A stretch of 64,000 nucleotides of DNA, from positions 1 through 64,000 of the forward strand of contig JABHBK010000016.1 of NCBI GenBank assembly GCA_018673915.1, given 5' to 3'. The stretch comes from Nitrospina sp. (GTDB lineage: Bacteria > Nitrospinota > Nitrospinia > Nitrospinales > VA-1). Under the pieces are notes generated by a model, which was given only the letters and a program-made list of their open reading frames with translations, ran no database searches and was not told the origin of the DNA. The stretch's first letter is position 1. Every line of letters begins with the position of its first letter. The position numbers were made by a program, and so were the translations under genes. Positions 34,458 through 49,764 of this stretch are shown in pieces.

Positions 34458-34481
34458 TATCCTTCCCGCAGAGCAGGAGCC

Positions 34482-35018
34482 ATGAGTAACAAATTACCTC
34501 ATACTGTAGGGGGCTGGAGTGCCATACGCTATTCGCTGAAAATGGCGAATCGAGCCGGAGGATTGTGGCCCATGCTTAAAGCACTAGCATCCCGAAATAA
34601 TTGCAAAAGTTGCGCATTGGGAATGGGTGGACAAAAAGGTGGAATGCGGGATGAAAAAGGTCACTTCCCTGCTGTTTGCAATAAATCTTTCATGGCCCAG
34701 GCTTCAGATATGCAGGGAGCCCTGCCCAAAGATTTTTTTAATCAATTCGACATTGCCTCCCTTTCCAAATGGACTCCTCGAGACTTGGAACTGAGTGGCC
34801 GCCTAACTCAACCAGTCCTCTGTGAATCCAAAGATTCGCACTACCGTCCCATAACATGGTCGGAAGCCATGGACCGGGTGGTCAGCAAACTCCAAGCCAC
34901 CTCTGCTGACAGATCTTTCTTTTATGCCAGTGGTCGCTCTTCCAATGAAGCAGGTTTCCTTCTGCAGCTCTTTGCCAGAATGTATGGAACAAATAACGTC
35001 AACAATTGTTCCTATTAT
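34482..35018 (+). pseudogene. 5' part of YdeP/FdhF-like molybdopterin oxidoreductase, interrupted by mobile element
   Basis: NNCKSCALGMGGQKGGMRDE...LTQPVLCESKDSHYRPITWSEAMDRV...SFFYASGRSSNEAGFLLQLFARMYGTNNVNNCSYY. The frame then runs into element DNA and stops at 35039. Confidence 0.9.
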
Positions 35019-35247
35019 CGACATATTTTTACACTCTGAAAGCACATTATTTTTCAATGGGTTATTGACCGTCATTTGGTTGACCATGCGTTTGTAGGAT
35101 GTTTGCAGAGTCACATTCAAAATACTCATTTATTCACCTGCGATAATTAAACATGACTCAAAACCTTATTAATAGTATACGATATGTGCTTAATTATCAA
35201 CCCTTATTATTGATCTTTTTCTTCTTTTATTATGTATTTTATAGTTG

Positions 35248-35277
35248 ACATATTGTCTCTTTTATAAGACAATGTGT
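35248..35277 (+). promoter_or_regulatory. Palindromic operator / promoter of the TA operon
   Basis: Near-perfect inverted repeat ACATATTGTCT-cttttata-AGACAATGTGT (10/11), overlapping TTGACA (35245-35250) and a GACAAT -10-like hexamer 17 bp downstream, just before the toxin start. Confidence 0.65.
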
Positions 35278-35279
35278 TT

Positions 35280-35573
35280 ATGGAAATCAAAACAACAACC
35301 GCATACGCAGAATGGTTTTTAGGACTCAAAGATGTTAAAGCTAAAGCCAAAATAGCGGTGCGGGTTAATAGGATTAAAGCGGGAAATTTTGGAGACTGCA
35401 AATCACTAAAAAACGGTGTCTCAGAGTTGAAGATTAATTCTGGCCCCGGATACAGAGTTTATTTTGGAAAACAGGGAAACGAAATAATCATTCTGATTGC
35501 GGGTAGCACAAAAGCCAACCAGCAAAAAGCGATCAATAAAGCAAAAATACTATGGGAGGAAATAAACAAATGA
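35280..35573 (+). CDS. Type II toxin, RelE/ParE superfamily (HigB/addiction-module killer type)
   Basis: FLGLKDVKAKAKIAVRVNRIKAGNFGDCKSLKNGVSELKINSGPGYRVYFGKQGNEIIILIAGSTKANQQKAINKAKILWEE. Confidence 0.93.
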   Translation: MEIKTTTAYAEWFLGLKDVKAKAKIAVRVNRIKAGNFGDCKSLKNGVSELKINSGPGYRVYFGKQGNEIIILIAGSTKANQQKAINKAKILWEEINK

Positions 35574-35881
35574 AATTAATAAACCATGACACATTAATTG
35601 AACAAGCTCTCCAAGACCCTAAATTTTTAGAAGAATACTTAAATGAAGCACTCAAGGAAGATGATGTTGAAACTTTTTTAATTGCCCTTAGACATATTGC
35701 AAAGTCAAAAAGTGGTGGAATTACGGGATTCGCTAAACACGCTGGATTTAGCCGTGGAACAATATACAAAACACTCTCAAAAAAAGGCAACCCTACTATC
35801 GGGAGCTTAAATAATTTTCTTGGTGCGGTAGGATTCCGATTAAAAGTTGAAAAAGTTGAAAAAGAACCGATTCACGCATGA
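35570..35881 (+). CDS. Cognate antitoxin, HTH (HigA/addiction-module antidote type)
   Basis: LNEALKEDDVETFLIALRHIAKSKSGGITGFAKHAGFSRGTIYKTLSKKGNPTIGSLNNFLGAVGFRL. Start overlaps the toxin stop (ATGA). Confidence 0.92.
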   Translation: MKLINHDTLIEQALQDPKFLEEYLNEALKEDDVETFLIALRHIAKSKSGGITGFAKHAGFSRGTIYKTLSKKGNPTIGSLNNFLGAVGFRLKVEKVEKEPIHA

Positions 35882-36942
35882 TCAAATTTCTTGACCCCCT
35901 CAATAAGTTTTTCCCGGTCAACTCTGGCATAGATGAGCGTGGTATTAAAATCACCATGCCCCATCAACTCCTGAATGGTGGTTAATGGAACCCCCTCTCT
36001 AATCAAGTAGCAAGCTCCAAAATGCCTGAATTGGTGCATGGCCCCTCTAGGCCAGCCTAGCTTTTTAAACGCCCTGCCCACCGTATTAGATACCGCATCG
36101 GCCTTCCAATCAGGGAACCATCTGCCATCTTCTGCCAAAGGTGTAGGGATTCCATCAAAAGCCTTTCTCAATTTATCTGTCATTGGAACAAACAAAGCTG
36201 GCCTGTTTTTATATCTGGTTTTTCTCCGTGCATAAGTAATACCATGATCCAGCGAACCGCTAAAGCGTACATCCTTTTTTCTAAGGTGCAATAAATCGCT
36301 CAATGGCAAGGTTGAGTGCATGGCAACTTCACAAAGGCTGGCATACTTTTTAGAGCGTGGCCCCTTCTTTAATTCCGCAATAACAGCAAGGGCCAATTCC
36401 TCTGAAACGATTTGCGAACCGTCAAAGGTTTCACCGGGAATGAAGGTTAAGGCTTTATAGTCAATTTCAAGCCCCAATTCCCTACCTACCCTCAATATTG
36501 CTAAGGCGGTTGCCTCTGGTTTAGTACTGGCGATTCTCTCAGCCCATTCCTGACTATCAATTTCAGATAATCTTTTGCCTGCAAACTCAGGAACCAAATG
36601 AACCTTTAAATTTCTTAATTTATTTTTTCGGTCAACTTTAGGATCATACTCTTTTTCCAGCTTATCAAACTTGATATGGAATTTTTGATACACGCCCTGC
36701 CTGATCAGCATTTTAATTTCAAACAGGTGTTGCCTTGCCTCATCCTCATTTGCAGTTTTGAGGCTTTGGTATTTAATCAAAGTTCCTTCAAACTTTCGTT
36801 CCTTGGCATACCAGTACCCGCTACGCTTAACAATTTCATCCGGCATAATAAAATCCCCCTTTTCACGGTAACTTGAAACCTTCAAGCTCCACCACTCAGG
36901 TAAAGATTTTAACACGCTTAAATTATTAATGGGTGCAGTCAT
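35872..36942 (-). CDS. Tyrosine recombinase / phage-type integrase
   Basis: C-terminal HQFRHFGACYLIREGVPLTTIQELMGHGDFNTTLIYARV (HxxR...GH...Y). The Arg-I region reads STLPLSDLLHLRKKDVRF. Confidence 0.93.
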   Translation of the reverse strand: MTAPINNLSVLKSLPEWWSLKVSSYREKGDFIMPDEIVKRSGYWYAKERKFEGTLIKYQSLKTANEDEARQHLFEIKMLIRQGVYQKFHIKFDKLEKEYDPKVDRKNKLRNLKVHLVPEFAGKRLSEIDSQEWAERIASTKPEATALAILRVGRELGLEIDYKALTFIPGETFDGSQIVSEELALAVIAELKKGPRSKKYASLCEVAMHSTLPLSDLLHLRKKDVRFSGSLDHGITYARRKTRYKNRPALFVPMTDKLRKAFDGIPTPLAEDGRWFPDWKADAVSNTVGRAFKKLGWPRGAMHQFRHFGACYLIREGVPLTTIQELMGHGDFNTTLIYARVDREKLIEGVKKFDHA

Positions 36943-36960
36943 TTATAAATTATTGATTCC

Positions 36961-37107
36961 TTAATTGTTACAAATTCCCAAGTATTTAGAAATAATGCCT
37001 TTCGCTTCCTCATACGAGTGGCAAACAGCGACCTCATAGCCCTGCACAAACAACGCATCTAGCCGTTTTTGTTGATCCTTGGTGGGCTTGTTCTTCCCAT
37101 ATTTCAT
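36961..37107 (-). CDS. Small protein resembling the C-terminal end of phage VRR-NUC nucleases
   Basis: MKYGKNKPTKDQQKRLDALFVQGYEVAVCHSYEEAKGIISKYLG resembles the 'tpeQ..wi..L...Gy.v.vc...eea...i..YL' tail seen in VRR-NUC proteins. Confidence 0.5.
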   Translation of the reverse strand: MKYGKNKPTKDQQKRLDALFVQGYEVAVCHSYEEAKGIISKYLGICNN

Positions 37108-37337
37108 TTCTTTTTCTCCTTCCAGTGGATACAGCCGAAGTCTTTTGCTGATGAGTTCATGTGAATAACAACCCCCTGTATAGAGCAAGTGTTAGAAAAT
37201 GGTGGGCTACCTTTTGTGTCTAGATTCTCACATAAATCGCAAGTTCCTATGACTGATAAGCCTTTAGCTTTATCAAGCCAATGCGTAAAAGCAACTACAG
37301 CTTTCCCTGTGGTTAATAACCAATCTTCAAGTTTCAT
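37104..37337 (-). CDS. Hypothetical small cysteine-containing element protein
   Basis: 77 aa MKLEDWLLTTGKAVVAFTHWLDKAKG...CDLCENLDTKG...; 4-bp overlap (ATGA) with the next ORF suggests translational coupling. Confidence 0.5.
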   Translation of the reverse strand: MKLEDWLLTTGKAVVAFTHWLDKAKGLSVIGTCDLCENLDTKGSPPFSNTCSIQGVVIHMNSSAKDFGCIHWKEKKK

Positions 37338-37420
37338 GTTGTCTCCTTTTTAAGCGAAAGAGAACGGGGCCGGTGGCTCTCGTAACTAGTATGCGAGTCT
37401 TACCTCAACACAACCCCTAA

Positions 37421-37478
37421 CCGTTTAGATGAGAACCCTAGTTGCTAATTCATCACTCACGTTTAAGGGTTCAAACGG
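37421..37478. other. Interrupted inverted repeat in a non-coding part of the element
   Basis: CCGTTT-agatga-GAACCCT ... AGGGTTC-AAACGG; both arm pairs perfectly complementary. Confidence 0.5.
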
Positions 37479-37628
37479 CTTCTCTCTATTTCTGCATATA
37501 TACATAATTTTTGGGGATACCACCTTGACCCACTCCCCTGCGGGCTATAGACGCTTCTTGGTGATTAAGAGTCAGAGCCATGATTAAAATATTCCCTTCG
37601 CAAGTAAACATGAAAATTATATTGTGTG

Positions 37629-38171
37629 TTAGTGCTTATCGAACCCCACCGCACTGGGTTTCATGATGTTTAGAGTCTGATCGATAGCTCCAGACTTGAA
37701 AAGATTTCTTGGTCTAATTACTGTAAATTCTTTCATGCCGTACCTAACCGCCCTTATTAACTGCAAGCCCTTCACATAATTTTTGTATACATCGGGGTTA
37801 TGAGTTTCCATAAAATGAATACCATCCACGCCCGTATGATGATCCTTGCAAAGCCATAAAATATCCACAGGGCGGGTATAATCAGTATGGTGAGCGTGTT
37901 TATCCTTTCTTGTCCGACACGCCAAGCATGGCCTTGGCTTTAGCCTTTGAGCCTCAATCCTAGCCTTTACCTTGACAGGGTTTTGCGCCCTGTACCTTTT
38001 GGCATTTGCCTCTCTTGCAAAAGCCTTATCCTTGAAAGCTCTGGTGGCTTTCTTTCTATCTTCACGCTCCAACTTCTCAGACCTCTCCCTCGCCTCGCAC
38101 TTATGGCAAGGTTTAGGCAGAGTATGTTTTTCAATCAACCTGATCTTCTTTTCCTCTAGCCAAATATCCAT
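37629..38171 (-). CDS. HNH/zinc-finger phage-type protein
   Basis: CLACRTRKDKHAHHTDYTRPVDILWLCKDHHTGVDG: CxxC...AHHxDYxxPxxxxWLCxxHH. Confidence 0.7.
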   Translation of the reverse strand: MDIWLEEKKIRLIEKHTLPKPCHKCEARERSEKLEREDRKKATRAFKDKAFAREANAKRYRAQNPVKVKARIEAQRLKPRPCLACRTRKDKHAHHTDYTRPVDILWLCKDHHTGVDGIHFMETHNPDVYKNYVKGLQLIRAVRYGMKEFTVIRPRNLFKSGAIDQTLNIMKPSAVGFDKH

Positions 38172-38298
38172 ATTAATGACACCTTATGATTGTTGGAGCT
38201 TTGTAGGAGAAAATATAGCGAAAATGATTTTCTGACATCATTGTTTTATAATGAGTTATCCCCATTTCATCCCCCATGTAAGTAATTGTTCCTATTAT

Positions 38299-39951
38299 TG
38301 TCATCAAGCTTCAGGCGTTGGGCTCTCCCAGAGCTTGGGAACAAGTACCGCAACGGTTGACCTGGAAGATCTCGATCAGGCCGATCTTGTTTTCCTAATT
38401 GGGGCCAATCCTGCTTCCAATCACCCTCGTTTCATGCGAATTCTCATGGATGTTCGTCGACGCGGAGGTCAAGTGGTCGTGATCAACCCTGCCAGAGAAC
38501 GCGGGCTGGAAAATTTCAGTGTCCCGTCAGATATGCGGAGCCTTCTATTTGGATCAGAAATCTCCAGCCTTTACCTGCAACCTCATATAGGCGGAGATAT
38601 CCCTCTTTTTAAAGCTATTGCAAAAGCCCTTCTGTCGGAAAAGGACCCCGGCATACTAGACCGAGACTTTATAAACCACCACACGCAAAATTTTGAAGAT
38701 GTCGAGAAGGATATCAAATCCGAATCCTGGGAAACATTAGAGTCTGCTTCAGGTATTTCACGAGGGGAAATAGAAAAAACTGCTCAAATTTATTCTAAGA
38801 GCAAAAACACCGTGTTTGCCTGGGCTATGGGTATCACTCATCATGCATTCGGGGTCGACAATGTGCAAGCCATTGTCAACCTGGCACTCATGCGAGGAAT
38901 GGTAGGAAAAAAACATGCCGGGCTCCTACCTTTAAGAGGACATAGCAACGTGCAGGGAATTGGTTCTATGGGTTTCACTCCACAATTGAAACAAGCAGTT
39001 TTAGATAACCTGGAATCTGAATTCCCGGTGACCCTGCCCACCCAACCAGGCCTAGACACCTTGGGCTGTGTGGAAGCTGCAAATAATGGGAAATTTGACT
39101 TTGCCTGGAACCTTGGAGGAAATTTGTATGGTTCTAATCCCGATTCCCGATTTGCCCAGACGGCTCTTTCTAAAATTGGTTTTAGTCTTTTTCTCAATAC
39201 CACCTTGAATCAAGGGCATTTTCTCGGTCGAGGCCAAACCAGCATTATTCTTCCCGTTTCAGCTAGGGATGAAGAGCCGGAACCCACCACACAGGAGAGT
39301 ATGTTTAGTTATATTCGACTCAGTAACGGAGGCCAGCAACGCTATTCGGGACCCAAAAGTGAAGTAAAAATAATCGCAGAAATTGGTCAACGTGTTCTAA
39401 AGGACTCCCCTCTCCCCTGGAAATCATTAAGCGAAACGGGAAATATACGGGAAATCATCAGCACCGTCATCCCAGGGTTCAAGCCCATCAAAAATATTGA
39501 CCAAACAAAGAAGGAATTCCATATTGATGGAAGAATTCTTCATACGCCCAAATTCCCGCTTCCCGACGGAAAAGCTAGTTTTAAAGTCTGCCCCATTCCT
39601 GCCGTTAAAAGAAATAAGGAAAATAGCTTTATTTTAATGACGGTTCGCTCAGAAGGTCAGTTTAATACTGTCGTATATGAACCGGATGATCGCTATCGTG
39701 GCGTCTCTTCACGCAATGTCGTTTTAATGAATGAAGAGGATATTAAAAAAGTCGGCTCCAAAGAAGGCGACCTTGTAACCATAAAAAATGAGACGGGGAC
39801 CATGGCAGGACAAAAGTTACAGGCGTATCCTATCAAACCGGGGAATATCATGATGTATTATCCGGAAAGCAACGTTCTCGTACCACGACAAATTGATCCC
39901 AAATCAAAAACCCCTTCTTTTAAATCGATAGAAGTATTTTTGGAAAAATAG
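38299..39951 (+). pseudogene. 3' part of YdeP/FdhF-like molybdopterin oxidoreductase
   Basis: CHQASGVGLSQSLGTSTATVDLEDLDQADLVFLIGANPASNHPRFMRILMDVRRRGGQVVVINPARERGLE..., plus C-terminal molydopterin dinucleotide-binding domain. ORF track begins at 38251 inside the element. Confidence 0.92.
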
Positions 39952-43831: not shown

Positions 43832-44131
43832 TTTATCGCTTATTTACAGTACTTTATATATAAATTACGAATACTATACATCAATAAATTGCTTAAGATT
43901 TTACATACCTCTAAATTCCTTATATCATTAAACTCTGAGAGTTTCAGGCATTTTACCGAGGGCAATGACTTTACCTAGTCAGTATGGGCAATTGACAAGA
44001 GATAACATCATTAAATAAAATTGACCTGCAAGAACACGATCCCAACCTGGGGCAATATCCATAAATTCTTGTTATTATATAACCTTTTCCATCTTTTCTA
44101 CCGATATGCAGGAGAACCAAAAGGCTAAATT

Positions 44132-45727
44132 ATGAAAAACATGGAATCCCTGCAATTGATTAAAGAGCAACTCAAAATAAAGTCAGTCGAGTTGCGCAAA
44201 GCTAACGAGGAAAAGGGGCAAGTCACAAATAAGATCAAAGATCTGATCACCTTTAACCAAGGTGAGGTAAAAAAACTTAAAGAGACTATTAAGAAAACTG
44301 AGGGAGATGTTGCAGAGCAAAAAAGTTTGCTCGATGCGGCCCGTCTCGCAAAAAATATTGGCTTGGATGCCAGCAGAAAGGAAAAAGAAGAAGAGGAGGC
44401 CGAAATAAGCAAGCGTCTTGAGGCCAAAATGGACGATAAAATGAAAAGCAAAATGGCCGAGCTTGCCTCTAAAATGGAAGCCCTCAAGAACCGGGTTGAA
44501 AAAGAAAAGGGAGCAAACAAAAAATTCGGGCGGGAACGAGAAGTTTTGATGAAAGAATTAAAACGCCTTCGACAGGATACTGGAACCACCGACAACTTAA
44601 AGAAGAAGATTGAGAGCCTGAAAGTGGATTTGGCAAAAGCTAAAAAGACATCCATGTCCTCAGGAGTAGTTACAGAAGATATTGTAAAAGAAAAAGACTC
44701 ACTCATCAAAAAGTATGAGGATATGCTTTACGGTGGCATGGATGCAGGTGAAGACGGCATGCTTCCCGCCGAAATCATCCAGGAATTAAAGGAAGAAGTA
44801 GAAGATCTTGAAAAAGAACGGCGCACAATGATCGTAGAGCTGGAAATGCTCAAAGAAGACAATGCTGAAATGGACATGAAAATTGTCCTAATGGAAGAAG
44901 AAAAAGGGCGCGGTGGTAAAGGAGGGGGTGGCGACGGCGGTGATTTTCGCCCTGTAGAAGGCCGTTCAGCGCAGACCTCTGAGTTCTCCGGGGGACTGGA
45001 AAACTTCCTCATCACCTATTCCGATATGATCACACTAATTCTGGTGGTATTTGTTTTGATGTACAGCGTTTCCAAGTTGGATGAAAATAAGTTTGCCGAA
45101 GCACTATCTTCATTCCAGACAAAAAGAATGCGTATTGAAAGTGTCAATGTTCGTTTGAGCAAAGCAGAAATGAAAATGCTGGAGCGAGTAAGAGAACTGG
45201 TTAAAGATAACGTTGATGCGGAAAGCCTCGCACGCAGTGACACGCGTACCATTCTTCATCGCTTACCCACGTCAGACCTTTTTGCTCCCGGCGAAGCATT
45301 CTTTAACGAAGGCGCAGAAGATCTAATCATTTCCACTATAAAAGAAGATATGCAGGAAGGTGTCAGGCAAGTGTTGGTAGATGGTCACACCGACAACGTC
45401 CCGATGAAAAGCGCCAAGTTTCCTTCTAACTGGGAGCTTTCGGCTGCCAGAGCTTCAAAGGTGGCAAGGTTTATTATAGAAAAAATGAGGTTTCCGCCTG
45501 CCCAAATGGTTGTAACAGGTTATGGGGAATTTCGCCCGCTTAAAGCCAACACCGATGACGATGCCCGTGCCGCCAATCGGCGAGTTGAGATTAAAATTTT
45601 GAAAGCGCTCGAAGTAGCAAAAGATGAAGCTAAAGGCACAAAGAAAAAATCTGGCAAGGGGGAAAAACCTGGTAAGGGGAAAAAATCTGGAGCTTCCGCA
45701 GAGTCGGCAATAAGTATAAAGCAATAA
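44132..45727 (+). CDS. MotB-like OmpA-domain protein with ~280-aa N-terminal coiled coil
   Basis: Coiled coil (residues 1 to about 255), then ENFLITYSDMITLILVVFVLMYSVSKLDENKF (MotB TM with conserved Asp), then OmpA-like VDGHTDNVPMKSAKFPSNWELSAARASKVARFI..RRVEI. Confidence 0.9.
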   Translation: MKNMESLQLIKEQLKIKSVELRKANEEKGQVTNKIKDLITFNQGEVKKLKETIKKTEGDVAEQKSLLDAARLAKNIGLDASRKEKEEEEAEISKRLEAKMDDKMKSKMAELASKMEALKNRVEKEKGANKKFGREREVLMKELKRLRQDTGTTDNLKKKIESLKVDLAKAKKTSMSSGVVTEDIVKEKDSLIKKYEDMLYGGMDAGEDGMLPAEIIQELKEEVEDLEKERRTMIVELEMLKEDNAEMDMKIVLMEEEKGRGGKGGGGDGGDFRPVEGRSAQTSEFSGGLENFLITYSDMITLILVVFVLMYSVSKLDENKFAEALSSFQTKRMRIESVNVRLSKAEMKMLERVRELVKDNVDAESLARSDTRTILHRLPTSDLFAPGEAFFNEGAEDLIISTIKEDMQEGVRQVLVDGHTDNVPMKSAKFPSNWELSAARASKVARFIIEKMRFPPAQMVVTGYGEFRPLKANTDDDARAANRRVEIKILKALEVAKDEAKGTKKKSGKGEKPGKGKKSGASAESAISIKQ

Positions 45728-45841: not shown

Positions 45842-48043
45842 ATGGAATCAATCGAAAAACAAATCGCCGAGCAAATGGAAGCAGAGAGCCAGCAAATGGA
45901 AGGGGATGCCCCTGCTCCAGACATACTACCCCTGGAACTTTCGCAAGAAAATATTGCAAAAGCTCGCAAAGTTCTCAACAAAACAGATGCAGAAATGCTC
46001 TTGTCAAACCGGCAGGATTATTTAAGGTTCAACCGCTTCAAAATAGATCGAAACCTGGTCACCCTGTCTGAGATTGATCGCCTGATTTTTCTAGTTGTTC
46101 CACGCCTTCTTCATGTGCACCAGGAAGGCTTGCCAGGTTATTTTGAAGGCGACCCGCCTTGTGGCATCCACAATTTTGTTCTGGATAAAGAAGCCCAAGT
46201 TGCCGCCGAAAAGCTATTTCCCGATATCATCATCCGCAGGAATCCAGAACTGAAGCCCGTCATCCACACCGCATTACTCATGGGTAGTGTGGGTTCCATT
46301 GCCCAAACAGTAAAGTCCGATCTGGATTACACCCTTCTGATAGATAAAAATGATTTCACCGAAGAAAGCATGAAACTGTTCCAGAAAAAACTGAACTTGA
46401 TAGAAACCTGGACCTGGGACAATTACAAGCTGGAAACCCATTTTTTCATCAATGATTTTGAAGAAGTCAAAAATAACATCTTTGGTGAAAGTGACAGTGA
46501 AAGCACAGGGTCCGCCCTGGCAAAACTTCTGAAAGAAGAAATGTATCGAACCATGATCATTGTCACCGGAAAAATTCCCTTCTGGCTGGTTGCTCCCGTG
46601 AGCTGTGATGACAATAGGTATTATGAGTTGTATGAAAAACTTATGTCAGGGGAAACCCTGCTCAGAAAAGAAGAATTTATCGACATGGGCAATGTGGATG
46701 ATATTTCCGATGGAGAATTTTTTGGTGGGTCTATATGGGCCTTGATTAAATCTTTCAAGTCCCCTTTTAAAACACTCATGAAAATGGGGGTGCTTGAAGA
46801 TTATATGTTTGGCGACACCAAATCGAACCTGCTATGCCATCAAATTAAAGATAAATACTATAACGATGTTCCCTACCTGGATATAGACCCTTATCTGGGA
46901 ATGTTCGAGCGGGTACAAAAGTTTTTTGCTGACACAAAATCGGAAGACGATGTCGATGCCCTGAGACATGCATTTTATTTAAAGGTAGGGACACAAGTCA
47001 CTGCCGAAGAGTTTGAAAAGGGTTCCGATGTTTGGAGGAAAAGTACGCTGATCAAAATGCTTAAAGAGTGGGGTTGGACTCCTGATAAAATTGAGAAGCT
47101 GAACAAGTATTCTGGCTGGCAAATGATGCACAAGGTAGACTTGGGAAACCGTATTAATAAAATCTTGATGGCCTCCTACAAAAACATCTCTGAAAAGAAT
47201 AAAACCCTTGACCCGAGCGAGAGCTTAATCACCGAGAAAGATACTCATCTTTTAGGTCGGAAGCTTTTCAGCTTTTACAGGGCCGCCCCTAATAAAGTTG
47301 ATAACCTGGGTGCTTTGGTAGATGGTAAAACCGCTGAAAATGAACTTACTTTCATTTTGGAGCAAAAGGATAAACAAACTAAACCAGAATGGTATCTGGT
47401 TCGAGGCAGAACGCAATCCTTTCTTGAGCAAATTGACAAGGATGATATCATTAGGAAATCAGCAACTCTCCCCTTTCTTCTAGCTTTTACCGTTTTTAAC
47501 CATCTTTACAGTGATAGCACCGAAGTTTTATTAAGAGCAGAGGGAGAATCCATCAAGGAAAATGACCTGGTTTCACTACTCGGAATACTCAAAAGCTTCA
47601 TTGAGTCCGTCAATATCGCCGCATTATCCAATGAAGATTTGTTGAACGAAGCTAAGATTAACCAGTTGTTCATGTTGGTGGACTTTGGCAACCCTCCTCC
47701 ACCCGATATAAGCATGGGAAACATCAGGGATTGTAAAAATAACGATGAATTGACAAAATTTATCAATAAACGAATTGAGAAAGCAAGGAGCATCACAACG
47801 ATTTATTTAACTTCATGGGGCGAACTGTTCTGTAAATCTTATGCAGGGTTAAATTGTATGGCCAGATGTATCTCCGACCTGAGCACCCAACTTACCCCTG
47901 AAAAGGTTGAAAAATCGGATTTTCTTAAGGTTTACATCCCTTGCGGCCGAAAAGAAATACTACAGATACCCTGGCTGAACAATTATATTGTGCGCTCATT
48001 ATTGATTCGAGCCACAGCTAATTTGCAAAAAACAGCCAGTTGA
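45842..48043 (+). CDS. Class I adenylate cyclase-like protein
   Basis: RLIFLVVPRLLHVHQEGLPGYFEGDPPCGIHNF; ALLMGSVGSIAQTVKSDLDYTLLID (nucleotidyltransferase GSxGS..SDLD); ETHFFINDF; EEMYRTMIIVTGKIPFWLVAPV. Confidence 0.85.
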   Translation: MESIEKQIAEQMEAESQQMEGDAPAPDILPLELSQENIAKARKVLNKTDAEMLLSNRQDYLRFNRFKIDRNLVTLSEIDRLIFLVVPRLLHVHQEGLPGYFEGDPPCGIHNFVLDKEAQVAAEKLFPDIIIRRNPELKPVIHTALLMGSVGSIAQTVKSDLDYTLLIDKNDFTEESMKLFQKKLNLIETWTWDNYKLETHFFINDFEEVKNNIFGESDSESTGSALAKLLKEEMYRTMIIVTGKIPFWLVAPVSCDDNRYYELYEKLMSGETLLRKEEFIDMGNVDDISDGEFFGGSIWALIKSFKSPFKTLMKMGVLEDYMFGDTKSNLLCHQIKDKYYNDVPYLDIDPYLGMFERVQKFFADTKSEDDVDALRHAFYLKVGTQVTAEEFEKGSDVWRKSTLIKMLKEWGWTPDKIEKLNKYSGWQMMHKVDLGNRINKILMASYKNISEKNKTLDPSESLITEKDTHLLGRKLFSFYRAAPNKVDNLGALVDGKTAENELTFILEQKDKQTKPEWYLVRGRTQSFLEQIDKDDIIRKSATLPFLLAFTVFNHLYSDSTEVLLRAEGESIKENDLVSLLGILKSFIESVNIAALSNEDLLNEAKINQLFMLVDFGNPPPPDISMGNIRDCKNNDELTKFINKRIEKARSITTIYLTSWGELFCKSYAGLNCMARCISDLSTQLTPEKVEKSDFLKVYIPCGRKEILQIPWLNNYIVRSLLIRATANLQKTAS

Positions 48044-48078: not shown

Positions 48079-48906
48079 ATGGCAACAGCAACTCAGGAAG
48101 CTCAAGGTACCGCCGCAGACGCAGCTCAGGAAGAGCGGCAGGATACAGGAATAGACACCGGTACCCTGATGGGTGTACTTTCCGGAGTATTTCTCATTAC
48201 GGTAGCAATTATTCGTGGTGGAGACGCTGGGGTATTTATCAATATCAACAGCGCTTTAATCGTTGTTGGGGGATCGATAGCCACCGCTTTTATAGCATTT
48301 CCAGCAAAGAAGATAACCACACTGATGCCGGTTTTATATAACGCGTTTAAACCCGGCGTTTATGAGCCGGAAGATTATGTCGATGACATTATGAGATTGG
48401 CCTCCAAATATCGTTCTGGGGGCATGAAACAGCTTGAAAATGAAGAGGGCAAAGTAGACAACCGGTTCTTACGGAATGGAATCGCCATGATCGTGGATGG
48501 GTACAACGCCAAGGAAATTCATGAGCTTATGGACAGAGAAATGAACGCTATGCTCGACAGGCACAACTCGGGACAAAAGGTTTTACGATTTATGTCTGTG
48601 CAGGCTCCCGTTTTTGGAATGGCAGGAACCCTAATTGGACTGGTACAAATGTTAATGCATATTGACGATCCATCGACGATTGGGCCCGCCTTGGCCACTG
48701 CTTTGATCACTACATTTTATGGCCTCATGCTCGCCAACCTGGTTCTCACTCCTCTTGCGGCAAAGTTAAGTATGAGAACAGATATGGAGGGCATCTTGGG
48801 CAGATCAATTCGAGTTGGCATCATTGGAATTCATGACAGGGTAAATCCAGCAAAAATTCAGCGGAATATGAATGCGCTTCTTCCACCAGATCAGCAAAGG
48901 GAATAA
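48079..48906 (+). CDS. MotA/TolQ/ExbB-type proton channel (MotA-like)
   Basis: QAPVFGMAGTLIGLVQMLMHIDDPSTIGPALATALITTFYGLMLANLVLTPLAAKL. Confidence 0.93.
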   Translation: MATATQEAQGTAADAAQEERQDTGIDTGTLMGVLSGVFLITVAIIRGGDAGVFININSALIVVGGSIATAFIAFPAKKITTLMPVLYNAFKPGVYEPEDYVDDIMRLASKYRSGGMKQLENEEGKVDNRFLRNGIAMIVDGYNAKEIHELMDREMNAMLDRHNSGQKVLRFMSVQAPVFGMAGTLIGLVQMLMHIDDPSTIGPALATALITTFYGLMLANLVLTPLAAKLSMRTDMEGILGRSIRVGIIGIHDRVNPAKIQRNMNALLPPDQQRE

Positions 48907-48912
48907 AAGTAA

Positions 48913-49764
48913 ATGTCAAACGTTGATGAGATAATTGCATTAGTCCTGAGAGAACCCAAACAAGATGGGGGCGATTTTAGCGGCTTTGATTTAAAAGGAG
49001 TGAGTCTTAATGGCGCAAGCTTTGTATACGCCACTCTGATTGGTACCGTTATGGACGACTCCGAATTGCGCGAGGTCGACTTTTCTCAAGCTTCCCTGGG
49101 AAAGACATCCTTTAAGAATGCTAAAATTAAAGATCTGAATTTTACTGGAGCAACTCTCGAAGAATCCAACTTTGAAGGTGCCACCTTGATGGATTGTAAT
49201 TTTAAAAATGCCGATCTATCCAATAGTGATTTCTCACAGACGAAAATAAGCAATTGTGATTTTCAGGGAGCAAATTTAGGTCACGCCAGCTTTTATTCCG
49301 CCACTATAGATGATACCAACATGGGCTTTGCCAGAATGATGTATGTTTTTATGAAGCAAGTCATCATTAATAAATCCCGATTGGGTGGAATCAATGCACG
49401 GGGGTCTGACTTAAGCTTTTCAAAAATGACAGAAGTAGATTTAAAGGGCTCCATTTTGAAATATGCGGACCTTAACTCCTGCACCTTTAAGGACGTCAAC
49501 CTGACCAACTCAAACCTGATAGGCGTGGAGTTGAAAGATGCTCAATGCGCAGGAATCATTTGGGAAGAAGCCAACCTGGAAGGATCTGACCTGACCTACG
49601 CCAATCTGGAAGGAAGCAATCTGAAAAATGCTTTTCTTCTCGAAGCTAATTTGCATGGTACAAATTTCACCAACGCAAACCTTGCCGACGCGTATTTAGT
49701 GGATGCCAACATTGCAAAAGCAATCACCAAAGGTGCCAACCTGGAAAACACCATCCTAGCCTAA
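48913..49764 (+). CDS. Pentapeptide-repeat protein
   Basis: Repeats A(D/N)LxxSxF e.g. FKNADLSNSDFSQTKISNCDFQGANLGHASF, EANLEGSDLTYANLEGSNLKNAFLLEANLHGTNFTNANLADAYL. Confidence 0.95.
   Translation: MSNVDEIIALVLREPKQDGGDFSGFDLKGVSLNGASFVYATLIGTVMDDSELREVDFSQASLGKTSFKNAKIKDLNFTGATLEESNFEGATLMDCNFKNADLSNSDFSQTKISNCDFQGANLGHASFYSATIDDTNMGFARMMYVFMKQVIINKSRLGGINARGSDLSFSKMTEVDLKGSILKYADLNSCTFKDVNLTNSNLIGVELKDAQCAGIIWEEANLEGSDLTYANLEGSNLKNAFLLEANLHGTNFTNANLADAYLVDANIAKAITKGANLENTILA

Follow-up and report, generated by a model that had tools for sequence, protein, structure and literature searches.

The 64,000-nucleotide stretch of DNA analysed here (the window), whose host is a marine nitrite-oxidising bacterium, encodes a MotB-like protein of 531 aa with a long N-terminal cytoplasmic rod (44132..45727; ORF, Pfam, alignment and dN/dS), which together with its orthologues is referred to as MotBcc. 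The gene lies on the + strand, as do all features of the module discussed below. MotBcc and a nearby MotA most likely form an additional flagellar-type stator, as judged from sequence comparison, and a rod-bearing stator beside a cyclase suggests a motor wired to the second messenger cAMP. Our best reading, held tentatively, is that of a stator with a cytosolic signalling or docking arm, for which a class I adenylate cyclase and/or a pentapeptide-repeat protein may be the clients. The observations behind it are the architecture of the protein, the selection acting on the rod, the FliG-contact residues of MotA, the conservation of the module and the co-occurrence with flagella.

In the standard MotB topology the OmpA domain is periplasmic and the N-terminus cytoplasmic. 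MotBcc showed a single transmembrane (TM) candidate by hydrophobicity (~291–313) and Pfam matches to MotB_plug (287–330) and OmpA (384–483), and because the OmpA domain is periplasmic and there is one TM helix, the ~280 charged residues that stand N-terminal of this helix are placed in the cytoplasm. The original prediction, which spanned 44132–45010 (residues 1–293 of an ORF that runs on to 45727), had claimed such a long cytoplasmic part in front of the channel helix, and this was borne out by the single TM helix, the OmpA domain on its far side and the conservation across the order. The TM helix (residues 291–313, 45002..45070; Pfam, alignment and hydrophobicity) carries the channel Asp298 (45023–45025), invariant in 27/27 orthologues in the alignment, so that the ion-conducting Asp is indeed kept, and is followed by a plug region (residues 316–330, 45077..45121; Pfam and AlphaFold) and an OmpA-type peptidoglycan-binding domain (residues 384–483, 45281..45580; Pfam). 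The TM helix with channel Asp, the plug and the OmpA peptidoglycan domain are features of a flagellar-type B subunit; the short cytoplasmic N-terminus that is usual in such subunits, although not strictly defining, is absent from MotBcc, the ~280 residues standing in its place. A promoter-like TTGACA-18-TAAAAT (43992..44021, + strand) is found 5′ of motB, a weak match in a region where the number of such sites is near chance.

In an alignment of 27 orthologues, M1 of MotBcc was invariant across the order and M4 varied. Comparison with seven near relatives, from which some saturated dS values were excluded, gave dN/dS values of 0.05–0.23 for residues 1–75, 0.01–0.04 for residues 180–259 and 0.00–0.04 for the TM–OmpA part, with up to 0.56 in the C-terminal tail. 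Since the values for residues 180–259 are low and similar to those of TM–OmpA, the extension is translated and under selection. An internal start near the TM helix, one of two weak points named in the original prediction, was ruled out by the invariant M1 and the low dN/dS in residues 180–259; the other, an extension unique to this genome or poorly conserved, did not materialise either, the rod tip and a mid-rod joint being conserved in the 27 orthologues. Mean column identity was 0.80 over the first 15 residues, 0.65–0.71 at 181–255 and 0.81–0.86 over the TM stretch, and fell to 0.28–0.38 in a variable spacer (residues 76–105) and at 256–270.

The coiled-coil and structure predictions suggested at the outset gave a heptad signal above permuted columns (z = 6.3 for hydrophobic residues at a/d positions across the alignment) and, in the AlphaFold monomer (mean pLDDT 71), rod helices at 4–75, 102–175, 180–200 and 212–259, after which come a disordered linker and, at 279–313, a membrane helix. 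The ~290 residues of heptads originally described were thus upheld as a long extension with heptad pattern, but the signal lies in separate segments with breaks at ~57–105 and ~169–203, and the extension is a segmented rod, not one continuous coil. Specifically, residues 1–75 (44132..44356; alignment and AlphaFold) comprise the first helix and the conserved tip (SLQL-KEQLK), residues 102–175 (44435..44656; heptad score and AlphaFold) a second long helix in which the heptad pattern is strongest, residues 181–217 (44672..44782; alignment and dN/dS) the conserved joint (EKDSLIKKYEDMLYGG...GMLPAEIIQELK), which a paralogue has too, and residues 212–259 (44765..44908; heptad score and AlphaFold) a membrane-proximal helix. 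At 1.5 angstrom per residue, the fully extended rod helices would together measure roughly 30 nm. The Gly-rich linker (residues 260–278, 44909..44965; alignment and AlphaFold), predicted to be disordered, is present here, as had been noted, and in near relatives, but the alignment showed that it is not an order-wide feature.

The gene order MotBcc, class I adenylate cyclase, MotA, pentapeptide protein was found at 26 loci. In the window the successive intergenic gaps are 114, 35 and 6 bp, and in some relatives (L075, L076 and L079) the motA and pentapeptide genes overlap by at least 1 base. Conservation extends to the flanking MFS, hydrolase and regulator genes, which are syntenic too, so gene order alone is weak evidence, supportive and not decisive. 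The cyclase (733 aa, 45842..48043; Pfam and alignment) is a class I adenylate cyclase, predicted to make cAMP, with the Adenyl_cycl_N and Adenylate_cycl domains and the GS...SDLD catalytic motif (46283–46327) in common with CyaA-type enzymes; its residues G148, S149, S159, D160 and D162 were invariant in 28 aligned homologues, outgroups included. It differs from the CyaA type in its place inside a stator module, in matching positions 1–405 only of the 601-position Pfam profile, and in a Thr shortly after the DxD motif, shared by the order-specific cyclases at a position that is Trp in outgroup class I cyclases. A sequence search for a solved structure of the cyclase gave none at E up to 1, and a fold search returned weak nucleotidyltransferase matches only. 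The pentapeptide-repeat protein (283 aa, 48913..49764; Pfam and hydrophobicity) is without a TM segment.

The MotA-like protein (275 aa, 48079..48906) has PomA as its closest match among solved structures. Its residues R112 (48412–48414) and E120 (48436–48438) align with PomA R88 and E96, the equivalents of the FliG-contact residues E. coli R90 and E98. Both residues were invariant in 24 module-type MotAs, and the Glu is lost in the MotA of the paralogue. In E. coli, MotA R90 and E98 contact FliG (PMC12505986). The genome of the window encodes a flagellar rotor (FliF and FliG) and FlhA, and a match to flhA was found in 36/36 MotBcc genomes (a few partial, at contig ends), with MotBcc in 0/10 genomes without intact flhA; this co-occurrence (Fisher p = 9e-5) is confounded, as is its p value, by kinship of the genomes and by genome reduction. 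In several genomes an ordinary MotB is encoded ~18–20 kb from flhA, which indicates that MotBcc is part of a stator additional to it. The retention of the FliG-contact residues together with flhA in 36/36 genomes argues for an additional stator of flagellar type and against Zorya.

The stator seems always to be accompanied by the cyclase, which occurs in all MotBcc genomes except one (G019) whose locus hits a contig end. The converse does not hold, as several genomes keep the cyclase–pentapeptide pair at this locus but have neither motA nor motB there. L145 still shows broken fragments of both motor genes, and L042 has a motA remnant within the pair as well as a divergent motA upstream. The pair can therefore outlive the motor genes, so that the cyclase does not need the rod and has work beyond the stator. 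In L047 (5484–8693) the pair is preceded by two tandem divergent motB genes with long N-termini and one motA.

The search for homologues of the same architecture, also suggested originally, yielded orthologues in the order, complete or partial in 36/64 of its genomes, and the relatives are Nitrospina-group records. Among the matches listed, the rod was found in this one order only: none of the MotB matches listed for genomes of other families, in the class or the domain, included it, their starts being at profile position ~257 at least, with other phyla thinly sampled. A plasmid search with the rod gave no match. One long MotB of another family was inspected (L169) and was rejected as a rod-bearing protein, its extra length being in the periplasmic linker.

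A second family in the order, MotBcc2, shares ~26–30% identity with MotBcc and has the tip and joint motifs in common. At its loci it is accompanied by a MotA of its own and a PilZ gene, or has a cNMP–GGDEF–EAL gene nearby (two genomes checked for the latter). The genes at these paralogous stator loci (L057:6101–8215 and L061:9711–11822) encode cNMP-binding–PAS–GGDEF–EAL proteins, in which cAMP and c-di-GMP signalling might converge. The genome of the window has MotBcc and an ordinary 273-aa MotB only. In one further genome, and only there, a single frame (L066:1922–3745) encodes a response-regulator receiver domain (Pfam E 1.2e-20) at the N-terminus, followed by coil, TM, plug and OmpA; to judge by its domain content, this fusion shows that the N-terminal end of the rod has been used for signalling. 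The gene lies downstream of an HD-domain gene and is convergent with a MotA gene.

These data are consistent with a model in which MotBcc and MotA would form a 5:2 ion-driven flagellar-type stator beside the ordinary stator of the cell. In 5:2 motors the B dimer is the axle and the A pentamer turns around it (PMC9389320), so a rod extending from the B N-termini would lie on the motor axis. The two N-termini would emerge from the MotA pentamer on its cytoplasmic side as a segmented coiled-coil rod, probably dimeric, with hinges at the linker and the conserved joint, and since MotA rotates and MotB is anchored in peptidoglycan, this rod would be a stationary arm. Its tip and joint may dock cytosolic signalling proteins near the motor, the likely clients in the module of the window being the class I adenylate cyclase and the pentapeptide protein. 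The dimeric state, the docking, the identity of the clients and the link to cAMP are the parts of the model that we infer; stator engagement and cAMP would then be linked in one direction or both, and the coupling of the rod-bearing stator to the cyclase may be direct. Of the lever or docking rod originally proposed, docking is favoured over a fixed-length lever because the tip and joint are conserved and the spacers variable, and the single receiver fusion points the same way. A signalling role for the arm is favoured because the tip and joint recur in MotBcc2 beside PilZ or near cNMP–GGDEF–EAL genes. In Pseudomonas, cAMP rises with flagellar load and influences the motor by a route that depends on MotAB (PMC6855561). 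A narrower idea, that the cyclase and/or the pentapeptide protein are physically mounted on the rod, as a motor-borne sensor turning engagement or load into cAMP or as a cyclase-gated stator, is a weaker possibility.

The rod could instead serve the flagellum itself: it would anchor the additional stator at the C-ring or at a polar scaffold and control its recruitment, with the cyclase and pentapeptide genes as co-expressed neighbours that influence motility through diffusible cAMP. This would explain why two stator families share the tip and joint, with the cyclase gene accompanying just one of them, why a divergent MotB/MotA pair with a long MotB N-terminus adjoins fliG (L069) and why the cyclase and pentapeptide genes remain where the motor genes are gone, and the ~20 cNMP-binding domains of the genome could act downstream; however, the ordinary MotB in these genomes functions with no rod and the receiver domain before one rod points to signalling, and we regard this explanation as doubtful. 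A passive spacer or single charged helix with no specific partners, retained just for length or expression, is an improbable account of the extension, as the tip and joint are conserved nearly like the TM helix, have very low dN/dS and recur as the same motifs in the paralogue, even though the composition is highly charged (K+E ~32%) and residues 76–105 and the linker vary freely.

A non-flagellar 5:2 motor, for instance a defence or envelope machine resembling Zorya whose effectors would be the cyclase and the pentapeptide protein, has similarly little in its favour. The B subunit weakly matches ZorB models (E 4e-17), and a pentapeptide protein together with a nucleotidyltransferase-fold enzyme is reminiscent of Hailong HalB/HalA (weak matches). 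Defence models, however, matched none of MotA, the cyclase and the pentapeptide protein, and an assignment to Zorya or to any other known defence system was rejected on that basis; the 275-aa MotA matches no model of a ZorA-type A subunit with a long C-terminal tail, and in a PADLOC scan of the module proteins neither the cyclase nor the pentapeptide protein matched ZorC, ZorD or ZorE. The PomA-like MotA with its FliG residues, the strict co-occurrence with flhA, the pentapeptide protein lacking a TM segment and the vertical conservation of one chromosomal locus across the order, unlike defence islands, also argue against such a machine. Zorya ZorAB (PMC11890865) shares with the present system a 5:2-type motor family and a long cytoplasmic appendage. 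The likeness to ZorA drawn in the original prediction stands as an analogy only: the ZorA tail is a bundle of five A-subunit C-termini (PMC11890865), whereas the rod is on the B-subunit N-terminus, co-occurs with flagella and has no partner matching a Zorya A-subunit model.

Compared with MotAB/PomAB (PMC12505986), the four-TM MotA, the R/E FliG contacts, the Asp in the MotB TM helix, the plug and the OmpA domain are shared; the present system differs in the ~280-residue cytoplasmic rod before the TM helix, in the cyclase gene that lies between motB and motA, and in being additional to an ordinary stator. In the passages of that stator survey consulted, a B-subunit extension of the rod kind is not described. 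In the open-access literature searched, neither a cytoplasmic coiled coil on MotB nor a stator–cyclase–pentapeptide module had a precedent, and the text of the Nitrospina gracilis genome paper mentions neither flagella nor a cyclase. The parts are known already, and the B-subunit rod and the MotB–cyclase–MotA–pentapeptide module appear to be new against this literature. In Pseudomonas aeruginosa, load, stators and cAMP are likewise functionally linked (PMC6855561), but through FlhF/FimV and with unlinked cyclase genes, whereas here the stator and cyclase genes adjoin and a cytosolic arm is present. The question of what physically links load, cAMP and stators, raised by the Pseudomonas work (PMC6855561), becomes directly testable here through the adjoining genes and the conserved arm. 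More generally, B subunits of 5:2 motors can bear large cytoplasmic modules, once with a fused receiver domain.

Elsewhere in the window, a ~3.2 kb insertion (35025–38274) with a tyrosine integrase (35872–36942, − strand) and an HNH-like ORF (37629–38171, − strand) splits a gene that in relatives encodes a 750-aa oxidoreductase (34473–35024 and 38275–39948), with ~10 codons repeated at both ends.
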